NCBI GenBank assembly: GCA_002067315.1 | Contig: MVRA01000041.1 | Location: 1 to 64,000, forward strand | Source: Methanocella sp. PtaU1.Bin125 | GTDB lineage: Archaea; Halobacteriota; Methanocellia; Methanocellales; Methanocellaceae | Direction of reading: 5' to 3' | DNA length: 64,000 bases | In this document: positions 6,940 to 15,645 of the stretch, in pieces | How the letters are laid out: every line of letters begins with the position of its first letter | Numbering within the stretch: position 1 is the first letter of the stretch | Program-made: the position numbers and the translations under genes | The notes under the pieces: generated by a model | What the model was told of the DNA's origin: nothing | Seen by the model: only the letters and a program-made list of their open reading frames with translations | Databases searched by the model: none

Positions 6940-7335
6940 ATGAGAAAGGTTATTGCATACGGAATTCTGTGTGTGCTGGCGCTCAGCTTTATTGTGCCGG
7001 CAAGTGCGAACCTGGTCGGGACTGCGTTCGGTTTCCCGACGATCCTGCAGACTGGCACGACGACTGCGTTCAACAGGGACACGGCTGCCGCTACGGACAC
7101 TGAGGCGTTCGCCCTGTCGTTCCCGACGACCGCCGATTCGGCATTCTGTCCGCTGCCCGGTCTCCCGGCCGGTGGCGCGTTCAACCTGGCGTTCCCGAGC
7201 ATTGCGCAGACGGTAGCCCAGACGCAGGTGCTCACGCACTGCGACTTTGCCACGACCACTGAAGAGGCCGCGTTCGCGTATCCGTTCGTCGGCGTCGGCG
7301 GCGTAGCCATCCCCGGCTTCGGCTTCGGGTTCTAA
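6940..7335 (+). CDS. small exported Phe/Pro/Gly-rich protein, copy 1
   Basis: The 131-residue product has a clear signal peptide (basic MRK, hydrophobic core, cleavage near PASA at residue 23). The mature part is 108 residues, rich in Phe, Pro, Thr, Ala and Gly, and ends in GFGFGF. Phe-Pro motifs recur: FGFPTI, LSFPTT, LAFPSI and FAYPFVGVGG. Two mature cysteines are present, and there is no membrane anchor or known sorting tail. GAGGAGG lies seven bases before the ATG within the leader GAGGAGGGTAGTTA, shared with copy 2 and others. I know no family for it. An extracellular or surface-associated structural role is inference. Confidence 0.8.
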   Translation: MRKVIAYGILCVLALSFIVPASANLVGTAFGFPTILQTGTTTAFNRDTAAATDTEAFALSFPTTADSAFCPLPGLPAGGAFNLAFPSIAQTVAQTQVLTHCDFATTTEEAAFAYPFVGVGGVAIPGFGFGF

Positions 7336-7518: not shown

Positions 7519-7547
7519 TTTCGTTATAATAACTGATAATATATTAA
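7519..7547 (+). promoter_or_regulatory. promoter of exported-protein copy 2
   Basis: AATATATTAA (7538-7547) starts 55 bases before the ATG at 7593. The upstream 14-mer TTTCGTTATAATAA (7519-7532) recurs exactly before the gene at 8845 (8772-8785), at the same 19-base offset from that gene's box. Confidence 0.6.
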
Positions 7548-7592: not shown

Positions 7593-7988
7593 ATGAGGAA
7601 GTTTATAACATACGGAATTCTGTTTGTGCTGGCGCTCGCTCTCGTGTTGCCGGCTGGCGCGAACCTGGTCGGGACTGCGTTCGGTTTCCCGACGATCCTG
7701 CAGACTGGCACGACGACTGCGTTCAACAGGGACACGGCTGCCGCTACGGACACTGAGGCGTTCGCCCTGTCGTTCCCGACGACCGCCGATTCGGCATTCT
7801 GTCCGCTGCCCGGTCTCCCGGCCGGTGGCGCGTTCAACCTGGCGTTCCCCAGCATTGCGCAGACGGTAGCCCAGACGCAGGTGCTCACGCACTGCGACTT
7901 TGCCACGACCACTGAAGAGGCCGCGTTCGCGTATCCGTTCGTCGGCGTCGGCGGCGTAGCCATCCCCGGCTTCGGCTTCGGGTTCTAA
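7593..7988 (+). CDS. small exported Phe/Pro/Gly-rich protein, copy 2
   Basis: This 131-residue protein has the same 108-residue mature sequence as copy 1. The DNA of the mature part (7659-7989 against 7006-7336) differs at only one base, a synonymous change. The signal peptide (LALALVLPAGA against LALSFIVPASA) and the flanks have diverged, while the leader GAGGAGGGTAGTTA is the same. The pattern points to gene conversion or very recent duplication of the mature part. Function is unknown. Confidence 0.8.
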   Translation: MRKFITYGILFVLALALVLPAGANLVGTAFGFPTILQTGTTTAFNRDTAAATDTEAFALSFPTTADSAFCPLPGLPAGGAFNLAFPSIAQTVAQTQVLTHCDFATTTEEAAFAYPFVGVGGVAIPGFGFGF

Positions 7989-8030: not shown

Positions 8031-8159
8031 CCCTGTTGCCCTGTGATCATTTCCCGATTGCTCCTGCCAAACGACAGCAAATCCAGGACGTCTATGGGTT
8101 CGCGGGCCATAACGTATTTATTATTGATCAATAGCCAATTATTCGTTTTTATGCACGCT

Positions 8160-8218: not shown

Positions 8219-8590
8219 ATGGTGAGAAAATTACTTTCGATAGTGATGCTTTCGCTGGTCATCGGGATTCTCACGGTCCCGGCAGCCGCTTCGCTGGTCC
8301 CTATGTCCTGGGGATTCCCGCAGATGGTACAGGACCACACAATAACGGTGTTCGAGAAGGATTTTGCACTGGCAACGGACGACGAGGCAGCGGCGGTCTC
8401 GTTCCCGACGACGGCAAGCGATCTCTGCGGCACAGCGTTCGGCTCGGCGTTCCCGACCATCACGCAGACAGCAGTCCAGAGCCAGACGCTAAGCAGTGTC
8501 AAGTTCATGAACGAGAACCAGCACTTCGCGTTCGCATACCCGTTCCTGAGCATCGGCGGCTCCCCGCTGCCGGCGATGGGATTCCTTTAA
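8219..8590 (+). CDS. small exported protein, diverged paralogue of copies 1 and 2
   Basis: The 123-residue protein has a signal peptide (MVRKLL, hydrophobic core, VPAAA at about residue 24). Its mature sequence is diverged but has the same plan as copies 1 and 2: WGFPQM, VSFPTT, SAFPTI, then FAFAYPFLSIGG and a short hydrophobic end (MGFL). Conserved landmarks also include an acidic ATD(D/T)EA stretch and one cysteine. The spacer after GAGGAGG is longer here (11 bases) than in the other copies. The conserved landmarks show that this is a protein family under constraint rather than random low-complexity sequence. Confidence 0.78.
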   Translation: MVRKLLSIVMLSLVIGILTVPAAASLVPMSWGFPQMVQDHTITVFEKDFALATDDEAAAVSFPTTASDLCGTAFGSAFPTITQTAVQSQTLSSVKFMNENQHFAFAYPFLSIGGSPLPAMGFL

Positions 8591-8771: not shown

Positions 8772-8803
8772 TTTCGTTATAATAAATAATAATATATTTA
8801 TTA
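8772..8803 (+). promoter_or_regulatory. promoter of the Gly/Phe-rich cysteine-containing gene
   Basis: TTTCGTTATAATAA (8772-8785) and AATATATTTA (8791-8800) repeat the promoter arrangement of copy 2 and the box of the first gene. The box starts 54 bases before the ATG at 8845. Confidence 0.6.
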
Positions 8804-8844: not shown

Positions 8845-9450
8845 ATGAGTTCAATAAAGAAATTAGCCGTACTATCGATGCTGGCCGTCGTTCTCATTGC
8901 GTTCTGTATGCCGGCATCTGCAGTGATCGGCGCAGGTGTAGGTGCTAGCTCCGTTTCGACTGCGGGGATTTCCGCTGCGTCGTCTGTCTCTGCCACTGCG
9001 GCAGGGATCGGCCTGGGTGGAGTCGGCCTGGGTGGAGTCGGCGCGTTCGGTGGGTTCGGTTTCCCGTTCAACTGGGGATTTAGCCAGTTTGGCATCGGTG
9101 CGTTCCCGTTCAACTGGGGTCTGGGCGCAGGATTAGGGCCCTTCGGCCTCGGGTGGAACCAGTTCAGCCCGTGCTTCGGTTCCGGATCGTTCTTCAGCCC
9201 GTGCTTCCTCGGGAGCACGTGTCAGGCGTTGCCGTTTATAACGGGCAAACCTGGCTTCTGTGCCGGGCCTGGCTTCGGGATTACGCCGTGGGCTTTCGGC
9301 CTTGGTGGCTGTACGAGGAGTATGCCTCTGTTCTTTGGCGCGCACGGGTTCGGTTTCCCGTTCACGCTGGGTGCGTGGGGCGCTTCCCTGATCCCGCCAG
9401 TGCCCGTTCTGCCGGCGCTGCCCGCAGCAATACCGTCGACTGTCTGCTGA
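8845..9450 (+). CDS. exported Gly/Phe-rich protein with six cysteines
   Basis: The 201-residue product has a signal peptide ending near MPASA (residue 26). A Ser/Ala/Val-rich spacer follows, then glycine repeats (GLGGVGLGGVGAFGGFGFPF), two copies of FPFNWG and a cysteine-bearing half (SPCFGSG, SPCFLGSTC, GFCAG, GGCTR, terminal C; six in all). The six cysteines would permit disulfide cross-linking outside the cell (inference). I chose the ATG at 8845, preceded by GGGGGGA, over the in-frame ATG at 8824, which would displace the signal peptide. No known family; composition recalls structural or adhesive secreted proteins. Confidence 0.75.
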   Translation: MSSIKKLAVLSMLAVVLIAFCMPASAVIGAGVGASSVSTAGISAASSVSATAAGIGLGGVGLGGVGAFGGFGFPFNWGFSQFGIGAFPFNWGLGAGLGPFGLGWNQFSPCFGSGSFFSPCFLGSTCQALPFITGKPGFCAGPGFGITPWAFGLGGCTRSMPLFFGAHGFGFPFTLGAWGASLIPPVPVLPALPAAIPSTVC

Positions 9451-9680
9451 AATACGCAGGCAGCGTGTAACGTAGCCCGGAGAGGAACACCGGGAATCAG
9501 ACTCCCTGTGGCCTGTTCGGGCCCCCAAAATTTAACAGCATTTTTTTCTTAAGCGTAATATCCCGGGACGCATGTGGAATACATCGATAAATCGAGCTTA
9601 TTTCCTGTTAAAAAGGCCGTAACGTGCTTGTATTATCTTATCATCGTCATAACGGGGCGATTTCGTGAATTTATTATAAT

Positions 9681-9690
9681 AACTTATTTA
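9681..9690 (+). promoter_or_regulatory. TATA-like box of the Trp/Gly peptide gene
   Basis: AACTTATTTA starts 49 bases before the GTG at 9730 and is preceded by TTATAATAA, resembling the promoters of copy 2 and the 8845 gene. It is a looser match than the other boxes. Confidence 0.45.
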
Positions 9691-9729
9691 ATATTACTTG
9701 TGTACTTTCATTTTGCAGGGGGGAATGAT

Positions 9730-9921
9730 GTGAGCTTTAAGAAACTGGCCATATACGTTCTTCTCGTGTTGGCCGCGCTGGCCGTCACCCTGCCCGCAGT
9801 CGCCTGGTGGGGCGGCTGGGGCTGGGGCGGTCTCGGCTGGGGCGGTCTCGGCTGGGGCTGGCCCTCATGGGGCTGGGGCACCGGCCTCTGGTGGCCATCC
9901 TGGGGCGGCTGGTGGTGGTAA
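9730..9921 (+). CDS. exported Trp/Gly-rich peptide, 63 residues
   Basis: Translation starts at GTG, with GGGGGGAAT just upstream. The signal peptide (MSFKKLAIYVLLVLAALAV, cleavage near LPAVA, residue 25) resembles that of the preceding gene. The 38-residue mature peptide contains 15 Trp and 15 Gly, arranged as WGWGG, LGWGG and WPSWG(W/G) units, and ends in WWW. There are no charged residues and no cysteines. This composition matches no family I know. The peptide would be expected to insert into or coat membranes or to assemble through aromatic stacking; both ideas are inference. A hairpin (GGGAG...CTCCC, 9985-10012) followed by T-rich sequence lies downstream. Confidence 0.7.
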   Translation: MSFKKLAIYVLLVLAALAVTLPAVAWWGGWGWGGLGWGGLGWGWPSWGWGTGLWWPSWGGWWW

Positions 9922-10244
9922 ATACTAACCACATGCTATCGATTGCCTGACCTGAGCTACACGAGAAGAAGTGAAAAAATTGGGGAGGGAGCGCTGAGCC
10001 GCTTACTCCCGGTTTCTTTTTAGAACGCGGAAATGGCACGAACGTCACGAATGGCATAAGGCCTCACAGGAACATCATTTAGCAACTTTTTCCTCATTAG
10101 CGGCAATCACTCGGGGCCCGGTATAAATGGCTTCAGTCTACTCCGTGCCCTCTGTGGCCTCTGTGTCCTTAATTCGCTTATTGTTCTACAAATATATTTA
10201 ACAGATATAAATAATATTATACATACAACTTGAGGAGGGTAGTT
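9922..10244. other. gene-less interval with a CTCTGTGG-type repeat
   Basis: No gene is seen. A terminator-like hairpin lies at about 9985-10022. Bases 10143-10169 hold CCGTGCCCTCTGTGG followed by CCTCTGTGTCC, a short direct-repeat motif that reads like a dispersed intergenic repeat. The promoter box AATATATTTA (10191-10200) of the next gene closes the interval. Confidence 0.5.
10191..10200 (+). promoter_or_regulatory. TATA-like box of the 154-residue exported protein
   Basis: AATATATTTA starts 54 bases before the ATG at 10245, the same decamer and spacing as the genes at 8845 and 11066. Confidence 0.6.
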
Positions 10245-10709
10245 ATGGATTTGAGGAAAGCTCCGGTCCTGGTACTGGTGGTAGCCATAGCAGCGTCCTT
10301 TGTGACGCCTGCCGGAGCGTTCATAGGAACGGCGATGACGCTCGACAAGCACCTGGGCGACACGATCACTTTTAACATCGGCAAGCAGGTCCAGGCCGCA
10401 GGCGCTGCCTTCGGGCTCGAGCAGATGGACCTGGGGGTCACATGGGGGGTCGACTATGACCTGAGTACGATTGCTGGCTATCCATATGGCTACGGTGGTG
10501 TGGGTGCACTGACGGATGCCAACATCGGGTATAGCCTGGGCGTGAGCATGGACGAGGCGCACGCGGCCGCCTTTGACGGGTCGCCGTTCGGGGTGCCGCT
10601 GGCCACGGGTGACATGAGCCGGACGACCTTCAACAATTTCATCGCCAAGAACGATCACATCTCGAGCGCACAGGTAGCACTGCCGTTCGCCGGGTTCCCG
10701 GTATTCTGA
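10245..10709 (+). CDS. exported protein of the cluster, 154 residues
   Basis: The start is the ATG at 10245, placed by GAGGAGGGTAGTT; an in-frame TTG at 10230 lies before the ribosome site and is rejected. The signal peptide (MDLRKAPVLVLVVAIAASFV, cleavage near TPAGA) is followed by a mature part with alternating polar and hydrophobic segments, a Tyr/Gly patch (YPYGYGGVG) and the end LPFAGFPVF, which echoes the Phe-Pro ends of the other cluster members. No cysteine is present in the mature part. Likely a distant member of the same exported group; function unknown. Confidence 0.75.
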   Translation: MDLRKAPVLVLVVAIAASFVTPAGAFIGTAMTLDKHLGDTITFNIGKQVQAAGAAFGLEQMDLGVTWGVDYDLSTIAGYPYGYGGVGALTDANIGYSLGVSMDEAHAAAFDGSPFGVPLATGDMSRTTFNNFIAKNDHISSAQVALPFAGFPVF

Positions 10710-10728: not shown

Positions 10729-11065
10729 TCCGGCCTGCGTGCGCGCCAGATTATCTGCATGAGCGAGTAAGCTGTCTTTTTAATGGCTCAGTCTCAGAAT
10801 GCGCAGGATATCCGGGACATTATATTGCCGGTTGAGCTTCCTCGAAGCAATCGCAATATAAATATCCATTATTTTACTGATACAAGCAGTAATACGGTAT
10901 ATTTATAACTAATTGCCCATTATTGCCTTTCATTTTTACAATCAGCAATGGATAATACCCGGAATGCGATAAAATACTCCAGTTCGCTTACAATTCGTAT
11001 TTTTAAATAATAATATATTTATTTTGTATGGTTAGAGATAAGAATGCAGTTTCGGAGGTGTAGTT
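10710..11065. other. gene-less interval before the Val-Pro repeat gene
   Basis: Apart from the terminator and the next promoter, the interval is AT-rich with no gene seen. TATA-like sequence occurs at 11007-11023. Confidence 0.5.
11012..11021 (+). promoter_or_regulatory. TATA-like box of the Val-Pro repeat gene
   Basis: AATATATTTA starts 54 bases before the ATG at 11066 and is embedded in AATAATAATATATTTATT. Confidence 0.6.
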
Positions 11066-11845
11066 ATGAATATGGCAAGTAAAGTAACAGTAGCCTTACT
11101 GGTTGTAGCGGCTACTCTATTGGTTACCGCGCCGGCTTTCGCGCTGGGCGGTTTTGGTATTGGGGCTGGATTGGGCATCGGAGCGCCACTGGCCGGCGCA
11201 TGTGGTCCAGCGCCTGTGGCAGTCGGTGCTCCGCAGGATTGCATCGCTCAGGTCTATTGTAACGTCCCGGTCACGACCACCGTGCCCGTCACGGTCCCGA
11301 CGACCGTTCCGCAGCAGGTACCCATCACCGTCCCGGTCGCCGACGTGACTACGGTTACTGTTCCCAGGGCAGTCATCGTGCCCCAGACGGTACCCGTACC
11401 CATCGTCAGGCCCGCGGTAACGTCGACGACGGTCCCGGTCACAGTGCCGGTTCAGTCTAGCGTGCCCGTGACGAGCATGGTCCCGCAAACCTACACGGTT
11501 CCAATGGGATGCCCGCCGTCCGCTGTACCCGCTGCAGCGCCTGCTGCTGGCGTGTGCGCGCCGGGCGTCGGCGCAGGTATCGCCGCTCCCTACGGTGGCT
11601 TCGGTGCAGGCATTGGTACCGGCTTCGGCCTCGGCACTGGCTTCGGAGCTACCGGCTTCGGTGCCGGCTACGGCCTTGGCGCCAGGGGCCTGGGTGTGAG
11701 CACCCTCGGCTCTCAGTTCGGTATCGGCCAGGCAGGCCTTGGCACGGCCGCCGGCCTCCAGATGGCCGGCAGCAGCCTCGGGGCAGCCGCTCCGTCGGCC
11801 ATGACGGGCATGCAGGCTGGAACGGGCGCAGCGAACGTCAAGTAA
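11066..11845 (+). CDS. exported protein with Val-Pro repeats and a Gly-rich domain
   Basis: The 259-residue product has a signal peptide (cleavage near APAFA, residue 26). A Gly/Pro segment with two cysteines follows. Then come roughly 80 residues of valine-proline repeats with Thr between them (VPVTVPTTVP, VPITVPV and variants, about residues 70-150), and finally a Gly/Ala/Phe domain (GFGAGIGTGFGLGTGFGA). Five mature cysteines are present. GGAGGTG lies upstream of the ATG. Val-Pro repeats favour extended or polyproline-like structure, so a spacer or fibre element is plausible (inference). The composition places it with its neighbours, but it is not an obvious homologue of copies 1-3. Confidence 0.75.
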   Translation: MNMASKVTVALLVVAATLLVTAPAFALGGFGIGAGLGIGAPLAGACGPAPVAVGAPQDCIAQVYCNVPVTTTVPVTVPTTVPQQVPITVPVADVTTVTVPRAVIVPQTVPVPIVRPAVTSTTVPVTVPVQSSVPVTSMVPQTYTVPMGCPPSAVPAAAPAAGVCAPGVGAGIAAPYGGFGAGIGTGFGLGTGFGATGFGAGYGLGARGLGVSTLGSQFGIGQAGLGTAAGLQMAGSSLGAAAPSAMTGMQAGTGAANVK

Positions 11846-12375
11846 GTTTGCATCAGACAATAGGTTGGGAAACAAGCAAGAGACTAACGACGGACTGGAG
11901 ACATCCAGTCCGTTTGCGGTCCTTTTCAAGCGTTTTTATAGTCATCTCTCGAATATTTCAAACAGAGGCGCTTTCCTGCAGGCCGGAACGTGTTGCAAGC
12001 CGGATCCCGGGGATGCGGGGGGAGCCGGGCCCTCGATAAGGGGCCCTCCTGTCCTGCACGCGTGCGCACGCGAGACCGTGATAGGACGGAGGGCGCTCGC
12101 ATAAAAGCCACCGGATGCCTCCCGGAGTATTTCGAACCGTTAAGGAATGACTATAAATGGCGGGGTATATCTGCGCCTCACTCACTGTACAGGGCGTCTA
12201 ATCCTCTGCGGCAGGTAGCTATCCGTTGACACAAAAACCGTTAAAATTGCCCTGATTTTATTTTTATGGCATAATGTGCCCTTTACGTCTTATTAAAAGC
12301 CTCTAATCGTTAATATAGCTGGTAATTTATTTAATCAGCGTGGTATACCAGATCATGATGTTGAATGGGTGTTGT
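11846..12375. other. 530-base gene-less interval with hairpins
   Basis: A perfect nine-pair hairpin (CGGACTGGA 11891-11899, TCCAGTCCG 11904-11912) followed by a T-rich tract is a good terminator for the preceding gene. GGGCCC repeats around 12026-12046 could form another stem. No gene or RNA family is recognised. The last 60 bases hold the next promoter (AATTTATTTA, 12324-12333). Confidence 0.5.
11891..11926 (+). terminator. terminator after the Val-Pro repeat gene
   Basis: A nine-pair perfect stem with loop GACA (11900-11903) is followed by TTTGCGGTCCTTTTC. Confidence 0.6.
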
Positions 12376-13017
12376 ATGCTCAGGTATACGTTCTGCCTCG
12401 CCTGTGCCCTTTTCCTGGCTGCGGCATGCGTCCTGCCGGCGGGAGCCAGCAGTGTGGCGAACGTAAACATGTACGGTTACCCCATGATCATGGGGATAGG
12501 CGGCACCGGAGCGGCCGGAGTGCCCGGGGAAGCGTACACGATGACCAACGCCGGCATCGACGGGCTGTCGGACGTAACGTCGAGGTATGGTATCGTAACC
12601 GCGTCCTCGGTCTCGTCGCCGTCCACCCCGAGTAGTTACGGATACTTCGGGCCCAACTGGAATGGCATCACGCTGGGCGTAAACTTCGGCTGGCCCACCG
12701 CCACCCACGACGCGGCCACGACCGCATATGCCAAAGACCTCGCCTACGAAGCCTGCCTGGACAACGCCGCGATCGCCTTCCCGGGCCTCGGTGTCGGATC
12801 GCTGGGCGTCAGCTTCCCCTCCCTGACCAGCAATAAGGCCGATATCAAGTATATGGAAACTGTCCGCTTCACCCTGACTACGGAAAGCGATACGATGCCC
12901 CTCGGCGGCTTCGGCTACCCGCTCGGCCTGGGGCTGGGATATCTGGGCGTCGGCGTCAACGGCGGCCTCGGGACGTCGGGCGGCATCGGCATGCCCTTCT
13001 ATTATTATAACAGCTGA
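12376..13017 (+). CDS. exported Gly/Ser/Tyr-rich protein, last of the cluster
   Basis: The start at the ATG 12376 gives 213 residues with a signal peptide (MLRYTFCLACALFLAAAC, cleavage near LPAGA). The in-frame ATG at 12340 would put charged and polar residues before it. The mature part contains Gly/Tyr/Pro patches (MYGYPMIMGIGG), FPGLGVGSLGVSFPSL, an ending rich in Gly (GFGYPLGLGLGYLGVG) and the terminal FYYYNS. The Phe-Pro motifs resemble those of copies 1-3. The ribosome site is weak. AATTTATTTA starts 52 bases before the ATG. The MscS gene follows 21 bases after the stop and may be co-transcribed. Confidence 0.72.
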   Translation: MLRYTFCLACALFLAAACVLPAGASSVANVNMYGYPMIMGIGGTGAAGVPGEAYTMTNAGIDGLSDVTSRYGIVTASSVSSPSTPSSYGYFGPNWNGITLGVNFGWPTATHDAATTAYAKDLAYEACLDNAAIAFPGLGVGSLGVSFPSLTSNKADIKYMETVRFTLTTESDTMPLGGFGYPLGLGLGYLGVGVNGGLGTSGGIGMPFYYYNS

Positions 13018-13038: not shown

Positions 13039-13854
13039 ATGTTTCAGTCGGCGCATCCCGCAGACGCGACCACCAGGGCCGTCCTCGATCTCGTCGATTT
13101 TTTATACGGCAACTGGAACCGGATCGTGCTCTCGATCGCGATCCTCATTCTCGCCTTCATCGTGATCAGGGTACTGAAATCGATGGTGACCCAGGTGGGT
13201 AAAGACTATCGTTTGCCCGATAGTACCGTACGCCTGATCATCACCGCGGTGACCTACGGCACCGTCATCCTGGCGTTCGTGAACGTGCTCGCCGTCTTCA
13301 ATATCCAGCTATACCCTCTGATCCTGAGCCTCGGCGTACTCAGTGCCGTCGTCGTCCTCGGCTCCCAGCTGCTCATTTCAAACGTGCTCGGGGGCGCCGT
13401 GGTCTACGTGGAAAGGCCGTTCGTCATCGGGGACATCATCAAGGTGGGCGAGAATATCGGCGTCGTGCAGGGCATCAACATCCGGTCGACCGCCCTGAAA
13501 GGGCTGAACGGCCTGGATATCACTATTCCAAACTCTACCTTCCTGACGACCTCGATCACGAACTATACGAAGACCCGGCACTACCTGGTCAAAGTGCCTT
13601 TCACGATGCCGATAAAGGTCGATCTGTCCGGCCTCGCCGAAGCGATCAAGGCCCGGGCCGCTTCCATACCCGGGTTTGCCCCCGACCGTGGCGGTGAGCT
13701 GTATAAAATGGGCATAAGCAAGGTGGATATTCAGTACGAGCTGCACTTCTGGATCTCAGACCCGCGCAAGGCGGATGAGGCGAAGTCCCGGGTCATCGAT
13801 ATTATCAGCCAGGACCTCGGGCACAAAGGGCACTATGGGCTCGGAGGGGAATAG
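13039..13854 (+). CDS. MscS-family small-conductance mechanosensitive channel
   Basis: The 271-residue protein has three membrane segments (about residues 28-48, 64-86 and 90-116), the last being the Gly/Ala-bearing pore helix. The MscS beta-domain signature RPFVIGDIIKVGENIGVVQG, NSTFLTTSITNYT and a soluble alpha/beta C-terminus follow. Length and order match the short MscS type. Such channels open under membrane tension and release solutes during hypo-osmotic shock. CGGAG lies upstream of the ATG. Its position directly behind an exported-protein gene may only reflect gene packing. Confidence 0.9.
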   Translation: MFQSAHPADATTRAVLDLVDFLYGNWNRIVLSIAILILAFIVIRVLKSMVTQVGKDYRLPDSTVRLIITAVTYGTVILAFVNVLAVFNIQLYPLILSLGVLSAVVVLGSQLLISNVLGGAVVYVERPFVIGDIIKVGENIGVVQGINIRSTALKGLNGLDITIPNSTFLTTSITNYTKTRHYLVKVPFTMPIKVDLSGLAEAIKARAASIPGFAPDRGGELYKMGISKVDIQYELHFWISDPRKADEAKSRVIDIISQDLGHKGHYGLGGE

Positions 13855-15567: not shown

Positions 15568-15645
15568 GGGATCGTGGGGTAGCCTGGTCCATCCTTTCGC
15601 GTTCGGGACGCGGAAACCTGAGTTCAAATCTCAGCGATCCCACCA
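15568..15645 (+). tRNA. tRNA-Pro (anticodon CGG), CCA encoded
   Basis: The acceptor stem GGGATCG (15568-15574) pairs with CGATCCC (15635-15641), followed by discriminator A and encoded CCA (15643-15645). The anticodon stem TCGCG/CGCGG carries loop TTCGGGA, so the anticodon is CGG and G37 fits a proline tRNA. The T arm is CTGAG-TTCAAAT-CTCAG. The D arm GGG...TCC is present. It sits between rpoN and rpoK. Confidence 0.92.

Follow-up and report, generated by a model that had tools for sequence, protein, structure and literature searches.

A conserved tryptophan- and glycine-rich exported peptide gene in Methanocellales, set in a row of exported low-complexity proteins

Background

The window analysed here, a stretch of 64,000 nucleotides from Methanocella sp. 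PtaU1.Bin125, contains at 9730-9921 a short open frame whose translation is crowded with tryptophan and glycine. Such a composition raises the question of whether the frame is a freak of a GC-rich sequence or a gene, and of what an uncharged tryptophan/glycine (WG) peptide may do outside an archaeal cell. We find that it is a conserved gene and not a freak, and we propose a structural role for its product.

A literature search, mostly without subscription papers, returned nothing on the WG peptide or its locus as judged by title or start of abstract, and none of the papers matching the strings WGGWG, GWGGLG or GWGGWG concerns Methanocellales by title. In the M. paludicola genome paper (PMC3146512) none of the terms secret-, glycine, surface or tryptophan appears, and in PMC5368272 the term glycine-rich belongs to a passage on plant wall proteins.

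Results

The WG gene and its peptide

The gene and its immediate surroundings comprise the following features.

9662-9690, + strand: promoter-like element of the WG gene, TTCG-N19-TATTTA
9718-9724, + strand: ribosome-binding site GGGGGGA, 5 nt before the GTG, aligned in two relatives (L030 and L034)
9730-9921, + strand: WG gene for an exported Trp/Gly peptide, 63 residues with a GTG start (sequence and translation)
9730-9804, + strand: GTG start and predicted 25-residue Sec-type signal peptide ending in AVA (AxA motif, AlphaFold helix)
9805-9918, + strand: mature peptide, 38 residues, 15 W and 15 G, uncharged
9957-9967, + strand: 3' untranslated motif CTACACGAGAA, a single occurrence in the whole own genome
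9983-10021, + strand: hairpin (9983-10010) and T-rich stretch to 10021, a terminator candidate that recurs after homologues

The translation reads VSFKKLAIYVLLVLAALAVTLPAVA for the signal peptide followed by WWGGWGWGGLGWGGLGWGWPSWGWGTGLWWPSWGGWWW for the mature part. The signal peptide has KK, a long hydrophobic stretch and then P-A-V-A; AlphaFold predicts a helix from residue 3, with confidence for residues 1-20, and gives no confident structure for the mature part (pLDDT 55-61). The AxA motif and its conservation point to cleavage before WW. Counting the 38 mature residues (15 W, 15 G, 3 L, 2 P, 2 S and 1 T, with neither charged residues nor His) agrees with the composition given in the original prediction, as do the GTG start and the GGGGGGA site, both of which are kept in relatives.

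The original prediction also held this tryptophan density to be very unlikely by chance, and simulation bears this out: among 20,000 simulated 38-codon stretches (order-2 Markov model of the window) the maximum was 6 W, and the next-best 38-codon stretch in the six frames of the whole window has 6 W compared to 15 in the WG peptide. The gene carries a 15-bp tandem repeat in 3.4 copies, and this tandem duplication built part of the tryptophan density. Several other frames across the gene are also nearly stop-free, so the openness of the WG frame alone is no proof of coding. Coding is argued instead from the conservation of the signal peptide, the start, the ribosome site and the slot, together with a change that is rich in third positions. 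We regard it as nearly certain that this is a real, conserved gene for an exported peptide.

The WG family across Methanocellales

We compared four genomes of the order Methanocellales representing three genera. G001 is M. paludicola; G002 is RC-I MRE50, of the same genus as the window's genome, and we take it to be M. arvoryzae. The family profile matches all four genomes and none of the remaining 388 genomes of the phylum (392 examined, E 1e-4). A second phylum, reached through L029, gave 0 matches out of 300, a set with no positive control, so this result says little. The gene that occupies the same slot as the WG gene is intact in all four genomes; stops and frameshifts, which the original prediction named as evidence against a real gene, were looked for in these relatives and none was found. 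A search for W/G-rich exported peptides in the order, suggested at the same time, yielded 11 distinct proteins in the four genomes, namely the four slot genes and seven genes elsewhere.

Family membership was defined as follows. L032 was left out as the same protein as L031. Wider exported relatives (E up to 0.01) that lack a W(W/F)[GS] start or are much longer were likewise left out (L053, L056, L057, L059, L060, L061, L063, L065, L066, L067 and L068); L053, for instance, begins FFFG and ends FPFW. L064 is the slot gene of G003, kept as L070, and L069 is the second piece of L058.

After the predicted cut all 11 proteins begin with W(W/F)[GS], a start of which W(W/F) also served as an inclusion criterion, and all 11 end in W, an end that did not; nine of them end in WW. 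Mature lengths run from 38 to 62 residues, with 29-52% glycine, 20-42% aromatics and 0-3 charged residues. Six of the 11 have 2-4 Cys; the window's mature peptide is free of Q, K and C. It fits the family as defined, with a signal peptide that closes on an A-type motif before W(W/F)[GS], a body of glycine and aromatics, and a C-terminal W.

The nearest orthologue, L030 in G002, shares GTG, ribosome site and signal peptide with the window's gene, and its mature part (38 residues, 16 W, 14 G) has the same WGGWWW end. Over the first 43 codons the two genes differ at 9 first, 7 second and 16 third positions. Of the codons that differ, 10 are synonymous changes and 10 nonsynonymous, indicating moderate selection at the level of the letters. 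In M. paludicola the slot gene encodes 5 W and 13 F, tryptophan having been largely swapped for phenylalanine. Across the family aromatics are enriched at a spacing of 5 (65 against 49.8 +/- 4.6 in shuffles, z 3.3) and depleted at spacings 1, 2, 4, 7 and 9; the spacing-5 trend is weak in the two 38-residue peptides alone (z 1.7). The letters vary from member to member, as do the lengths, and in M. paludicola's slot gene Trp has been exchanged for Phe to a large extent, so what is kept is a grammar of aromatics and glycine rather than a sequence. The replacement of Trp by Phe in M. paludicola also makes a stacking grammar a better fit than a Trp-specific binding site.

M. paludicola carries two WG genes, L031 and L032, that lie 41 kb apart and encode the same protein with one synonymous base different in the gene. 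The two are identical from -152 to +182, yet their 3' ends differ.

The 3' side of the gene

The original prediction included a terminator, and this part is borne out by comparison but not by folding. A hairpin stands at the equivalent place after six homologous genes (L030, L031, L032, L033, L034 and L070), whereas the window's hairpin stretch folded alone is no better than shuffles (z -0.99). The motif CTACACGAGAA recurs, unchanged or altered, downstream of six homologous genes, each time followed by the hairpin, and the stem letters of these hairpins change in step (GTAAGCGC/GCGCTTAC, GTAGGCGT/ACGCCTAC and GTAGGTG/CACCTAC). The motif and hairpin together may simply be a terminator that has been passed down with the WG gene.

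A syntenic row of exported neighbours

The WG gene occupies the same slot in all four genomes, within a syntenic row of genes whose exported products are of low complexity. The gene order is S6e, x6940-type genes, x8219, x8845, the WG gene, x10245, x11066 and x12370, the neighbours in the window being these:

6940-7335, + strand: exported neighbour of family x6940, conserved across relatives
7593-7988, + strand: exported neighbour, near-identical copy of x6940, promoter box at 7520
8219-8590, + strand: exported neighbour x8219, diverged relative of x6940, promoter box at 8142
8845-9450, + strand: exported glycine/aromatic-rich neighbour x8845, promoter box at 8773
10245-10709, + strand: exported neighbour x10245, promoter box at 10173
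11066-11845, + strand: exported valine-proline repeat and glycine-rich neighbour x11066, promoter box at 10994
12370-13017, + strand: exported neighbour x12370, distant relative of x6940, conserved across relatives

The exported status of the neighbours was assigned by reading their N-termini (pattern and translations), not by a trained predictor. To the right of the row the window, L030 and L070 share the mechanosensitive-channel, L18e, L13 and S9 genes. None of these four has a match in the M. paludicola stretch L034, so the right flank there either differs or lies beyond the stretch. A plain tblastn search with the WG peptide reaches only L030 among the slot genes because the peptide is of low complexity; L034 and L070 were found by profile and reading.

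Like the WG family, the x6940-type profile has matches confined to these four genomes, out of 384 of the phylum, and the x6940 family has no confident predicted structure (mean pLDDT 44.6). The WG peptide and six exported neighbours scanned against Pfam and NCBIfam gave no family above cut-off, nor did PHROGs for the WG peptide and the four neighbours scanned there. The PDB sequences hold no match to the peptide, and Rfam over the window reports only a tRNA at 15568. Viral contigs searched with x6940 and the WG profile contain no relative; neither do phages searched with x6940, nor plasmids searched with the WG peptide, the last result being limited by the BLAST low-complexity filter. A contig scan with the S6e neighbour returned no Methanocellales contig.

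Two further observations concern the row itself. Between 6940-7335 and 7593-7988 there are 17 differing bases, 16 of them within the first 66, and the remainder is identical but for one base; judging from this pattern, the mature parts of the two copies look as if they were kept alike by gene conversion. In addition, the mechanosensitive-channel gene (13039-13854 in the window) adjoins the exported row in the window, L030 and L070.

A shared promoter type

Genes of the exported row share an unusual upstream promoter pattern, TTCG-N16-TATATTWA. With one mismatch allowed, the window has 7 matches compared to 0.22 expected, and 6 of them stand before genes of the row. The exact pattern occurs 7 times in the own genome (reversed control 1), in every case before an exported protein of this style: 5 matches lie in the locus within 3.5 kb, one on C79 precedes a valine-proline repeat protein, and one lies on C126. 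Over the four genomes 22 of the 26 exact matches precede exported proteins of this style, as read by eye from coordinates. The reversed control gives 15 matches against these 26, so the real count is moderately above background and position is better evidence than the raw count.

The match on C126 precedes an exported family of the form AFGFS-FP...AGPG (L106, with relatives L084, L086 and L095 in the other three genomes). This family has the TTCG-N16-TATATTWA promoter in all four genomes, away from the locus.

The strict pattern is not found before the WG gene, the x12370 genes and several of the x6940 copies. What the WG gene has is a variant, with TTCG at 9662 and TATTTA at 9685-9690, in which 19 bases separate TTCG from TWTTTA compared to 18 in the others, that is, one extra base of spacing. 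A relaxed pattern occurs at 5 places in the 64 kb, 4 of them in promoters of the locus including that of the WG gene. TTCG stands at -68 in three of the four slot genes (window, L030 and L070) and this box is missing at -68 from the M. paludicola slot gene. A promoter had been predicted here, and the one found is archaeal in type; a bacterial-type promoter scan was set aside as not apt for an archaeon. From these upstream sequences the genes of the exported row look jointly controlled. The tie of the WG peptide to a conserved locus with a shared promoter type was absent from the original prediction.

Discussion

A possible matrix or coat component

We lean towards the view that the WG peptide acts as a sticker-and-spacer element within an extracellular coat or matrix specific to Methanocellales, and that it belongs to no known family. 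The gene would be expressed and its product exported through Sec and cut between AVA and WW. Outside the cell the chain would be uncharged, very hydrophobic and, through its glycines, flexible, while its Trp or Phe rings would stack with each other and anchor at a membrane, lipid or S-layer interface. We propose that the chain would turn insoluble and glue or fill a layer because its aromatics stack and anchor and its glycines keep it flexible. The other, larger exported proteins encoded in the locus would presumably supply the bulk of such a matrix. The bases of this reading are the intact gene, the signal peptide, the slot in four of four genomes, the exported low-complexity row, the promoter type and the grammar. 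Against it count the low-confidence structure predictions for the mature part and the x6940 family, the absence of the strict promoter before the WG gene and of the TTCG box in M. paludicola, the high reversed-control count, and the equal numbers of synonymous and nonsynonymous codon differences, given that sequences of low complexity may wander and lengthen under little selection.

A bolder version, which we offer tentatively and regard as possible but on balance doubtful, is a Methanocellales protein coat of a kind undescribed in archaea. The locus behind it, under joint control and made up of genes for low-complexity exported proteins (Trp/Gly, Phe/Gly and Val-Pro repeat), would change its letters fast while keeping slots and grammar, as in the epidermal cornified-envelope cluster; the WG peptide would be the aromatic glue, and the coat might aid tolerance of oxygen and drying in soils. 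With these results, proteins without family assignment form a locus that can be put to the test and has a promoter code, and nature supplies Trp/Gly and Phe/Gly versions of a single peptide for comparison.

Other explanations

Of the functional guesses in the original prediction, assembly by aromatic stacking is favoured by the family, by the aromatic/glycine grammar and by the exported low-complexity proteins encoded around it. An antimicrobial role loses ground: the peptide carries no charge, its slot is fixed, and no immunity or transporter gene was recognised next to it. A peptide active on membranes, whether archaeocin-like or self-acting, would insert its tryptophans at the lipid interface of neighbours' membranes; the WG peptide is exported and short, tryptophan is known to bury in bilayers, and on an engineered cationic carrier GWWG tails raise endosomal escape, GWGGWG tails less so (as described in part of PMC5015074). 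Even so we consider this role unlikely: neither the window's slot peptide nor that of G002 carries a charge, the six flanking exported proteins are without a Pfam family above cut-off, and the gene is grouped by promoter type with low-complexity proteins in one slot shared by all four genomes. A hydrophobic surface adhesin, forming a thin film for aggregation with syntrophic partners or for sticking to roots or soil particles, would suit an exported, uncharged aromatic surface and is only somewhat less doubtful; no attachment domain or anchor is seen, nothing links the locus to aggregation, and adhesion is in any case a use of a coat and not a different object.

The density of aromatic rings could also suggest an electron-transfer or redox-protective material in which stacked tryptophans conduct or scavenge radicals at the cell surface. 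This is very unlikely, given that no haem or cofactor motif is seen and that the slot gene of M. paludicola has largely exchanged Trp for Phe, a residue that serves poorly in its place for hopping or for scavenging. In favour, Methanocella withstands oxygen pulses though poor in known antioxidant genes (PMC12904285). The terms Methanocella, tryptophan and aromatic are all absent from a review of methanogen electron transfer (PMC8019784). That no functional protein exists, and that slippage generated a GC-rich repeat that happens to be open, would agree with the 15-bp tandem repeat and the several open frames; it is highly improbable, since conservation covers the start, the ribosome site, the signal peptide, the slot and the two ends of the mature part, third positions carry an excess of change (16 compared to 9 and 7), and a single synonymous base separates the two M. 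paludicola copies over the gene. Least credible of all, and close to negligible, is a Trp-sensing leader peptide for attenuation control of downstream genes. The many Trp codons and the hairpin that follows them speak for it, but the WG gene has a signal peptide, its own promoter and a terminator candidate, the gene after it has a separate promoter box and codes for another exported low-complexity protein, and there are paralogues elsewhere as well as Phe-rich versions.

Comparison with known systems

A close likeness to a matrix or coat component of this kind is found in glycine-loop proteins such as loricrin and the end domains of keratins, which are also low-charge, glycine-rich chains indexed on aromatic or aliphatic residues. 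Glycine loops are defined in part of PMC6447390 as tandem x(y)n, where x is aromatic or aliphatic and y usually Gly or Ser, with loop sizes of 3 to 26 residues in chicken LOR3; the same text places loricrin genes among linked genes for insoluble-envelope proteins, which resembles the WG row. Read against that definition, the WG family follows the x(y)n pattern with n mostly 1-2. The window peptide has one run of 3 (G-T-G) between W/L residues and otherwise runs of 1-2, which fall below the LOR3 range, and its mature part offers no Gln/Lys sites or Cys for cross-linking. It differs further in being archaeal, in having 38 residues and in using Trp instead of Tyr. By analogy, we infer that the WG peptide works like glycine-loop structural proteins but is no member of them, and we do not claim common descent.

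Other comparisons are looser. Sheath proteins of Methanospirillum and Methanosaeta/Methanothrix (MspA) are likewise exported with signal peptides, present as several paralogues and lineage-restricted (PMC6242892); they measure 40.6 and 60.9 kDa compared to the 38 residues of the WG peptide. The word Methanocella is absent from a survey of sheaths (PMC11576556). Trp-rich antimicrobial peptides are also small, exported and Trp-dense (part of PMC6017362), and antimicrobial peptides are described as predominantly short and cationic (part of PMC8583803), whereas the window peptide has no net positive charge. Insect chorion proteins (Pfam PF01723) give a weak match to WG residues 21-50 (E 0.0024). 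Membership in Chorion_1 was rejected, the score being 18.3 bits against a curated cut-off of 22.3, and the match is best read as shared glycine-rich composition.

Among the exported proteins with valine-proline repeats, those at 11066-11845 in the window, L004 on C79 and L044 (G003 C10) have repeats of the type VTVPKxVxVPEQV. By look these repeats are reminiscent of the alveolin/articulin repeats of protist membrane skeletons.
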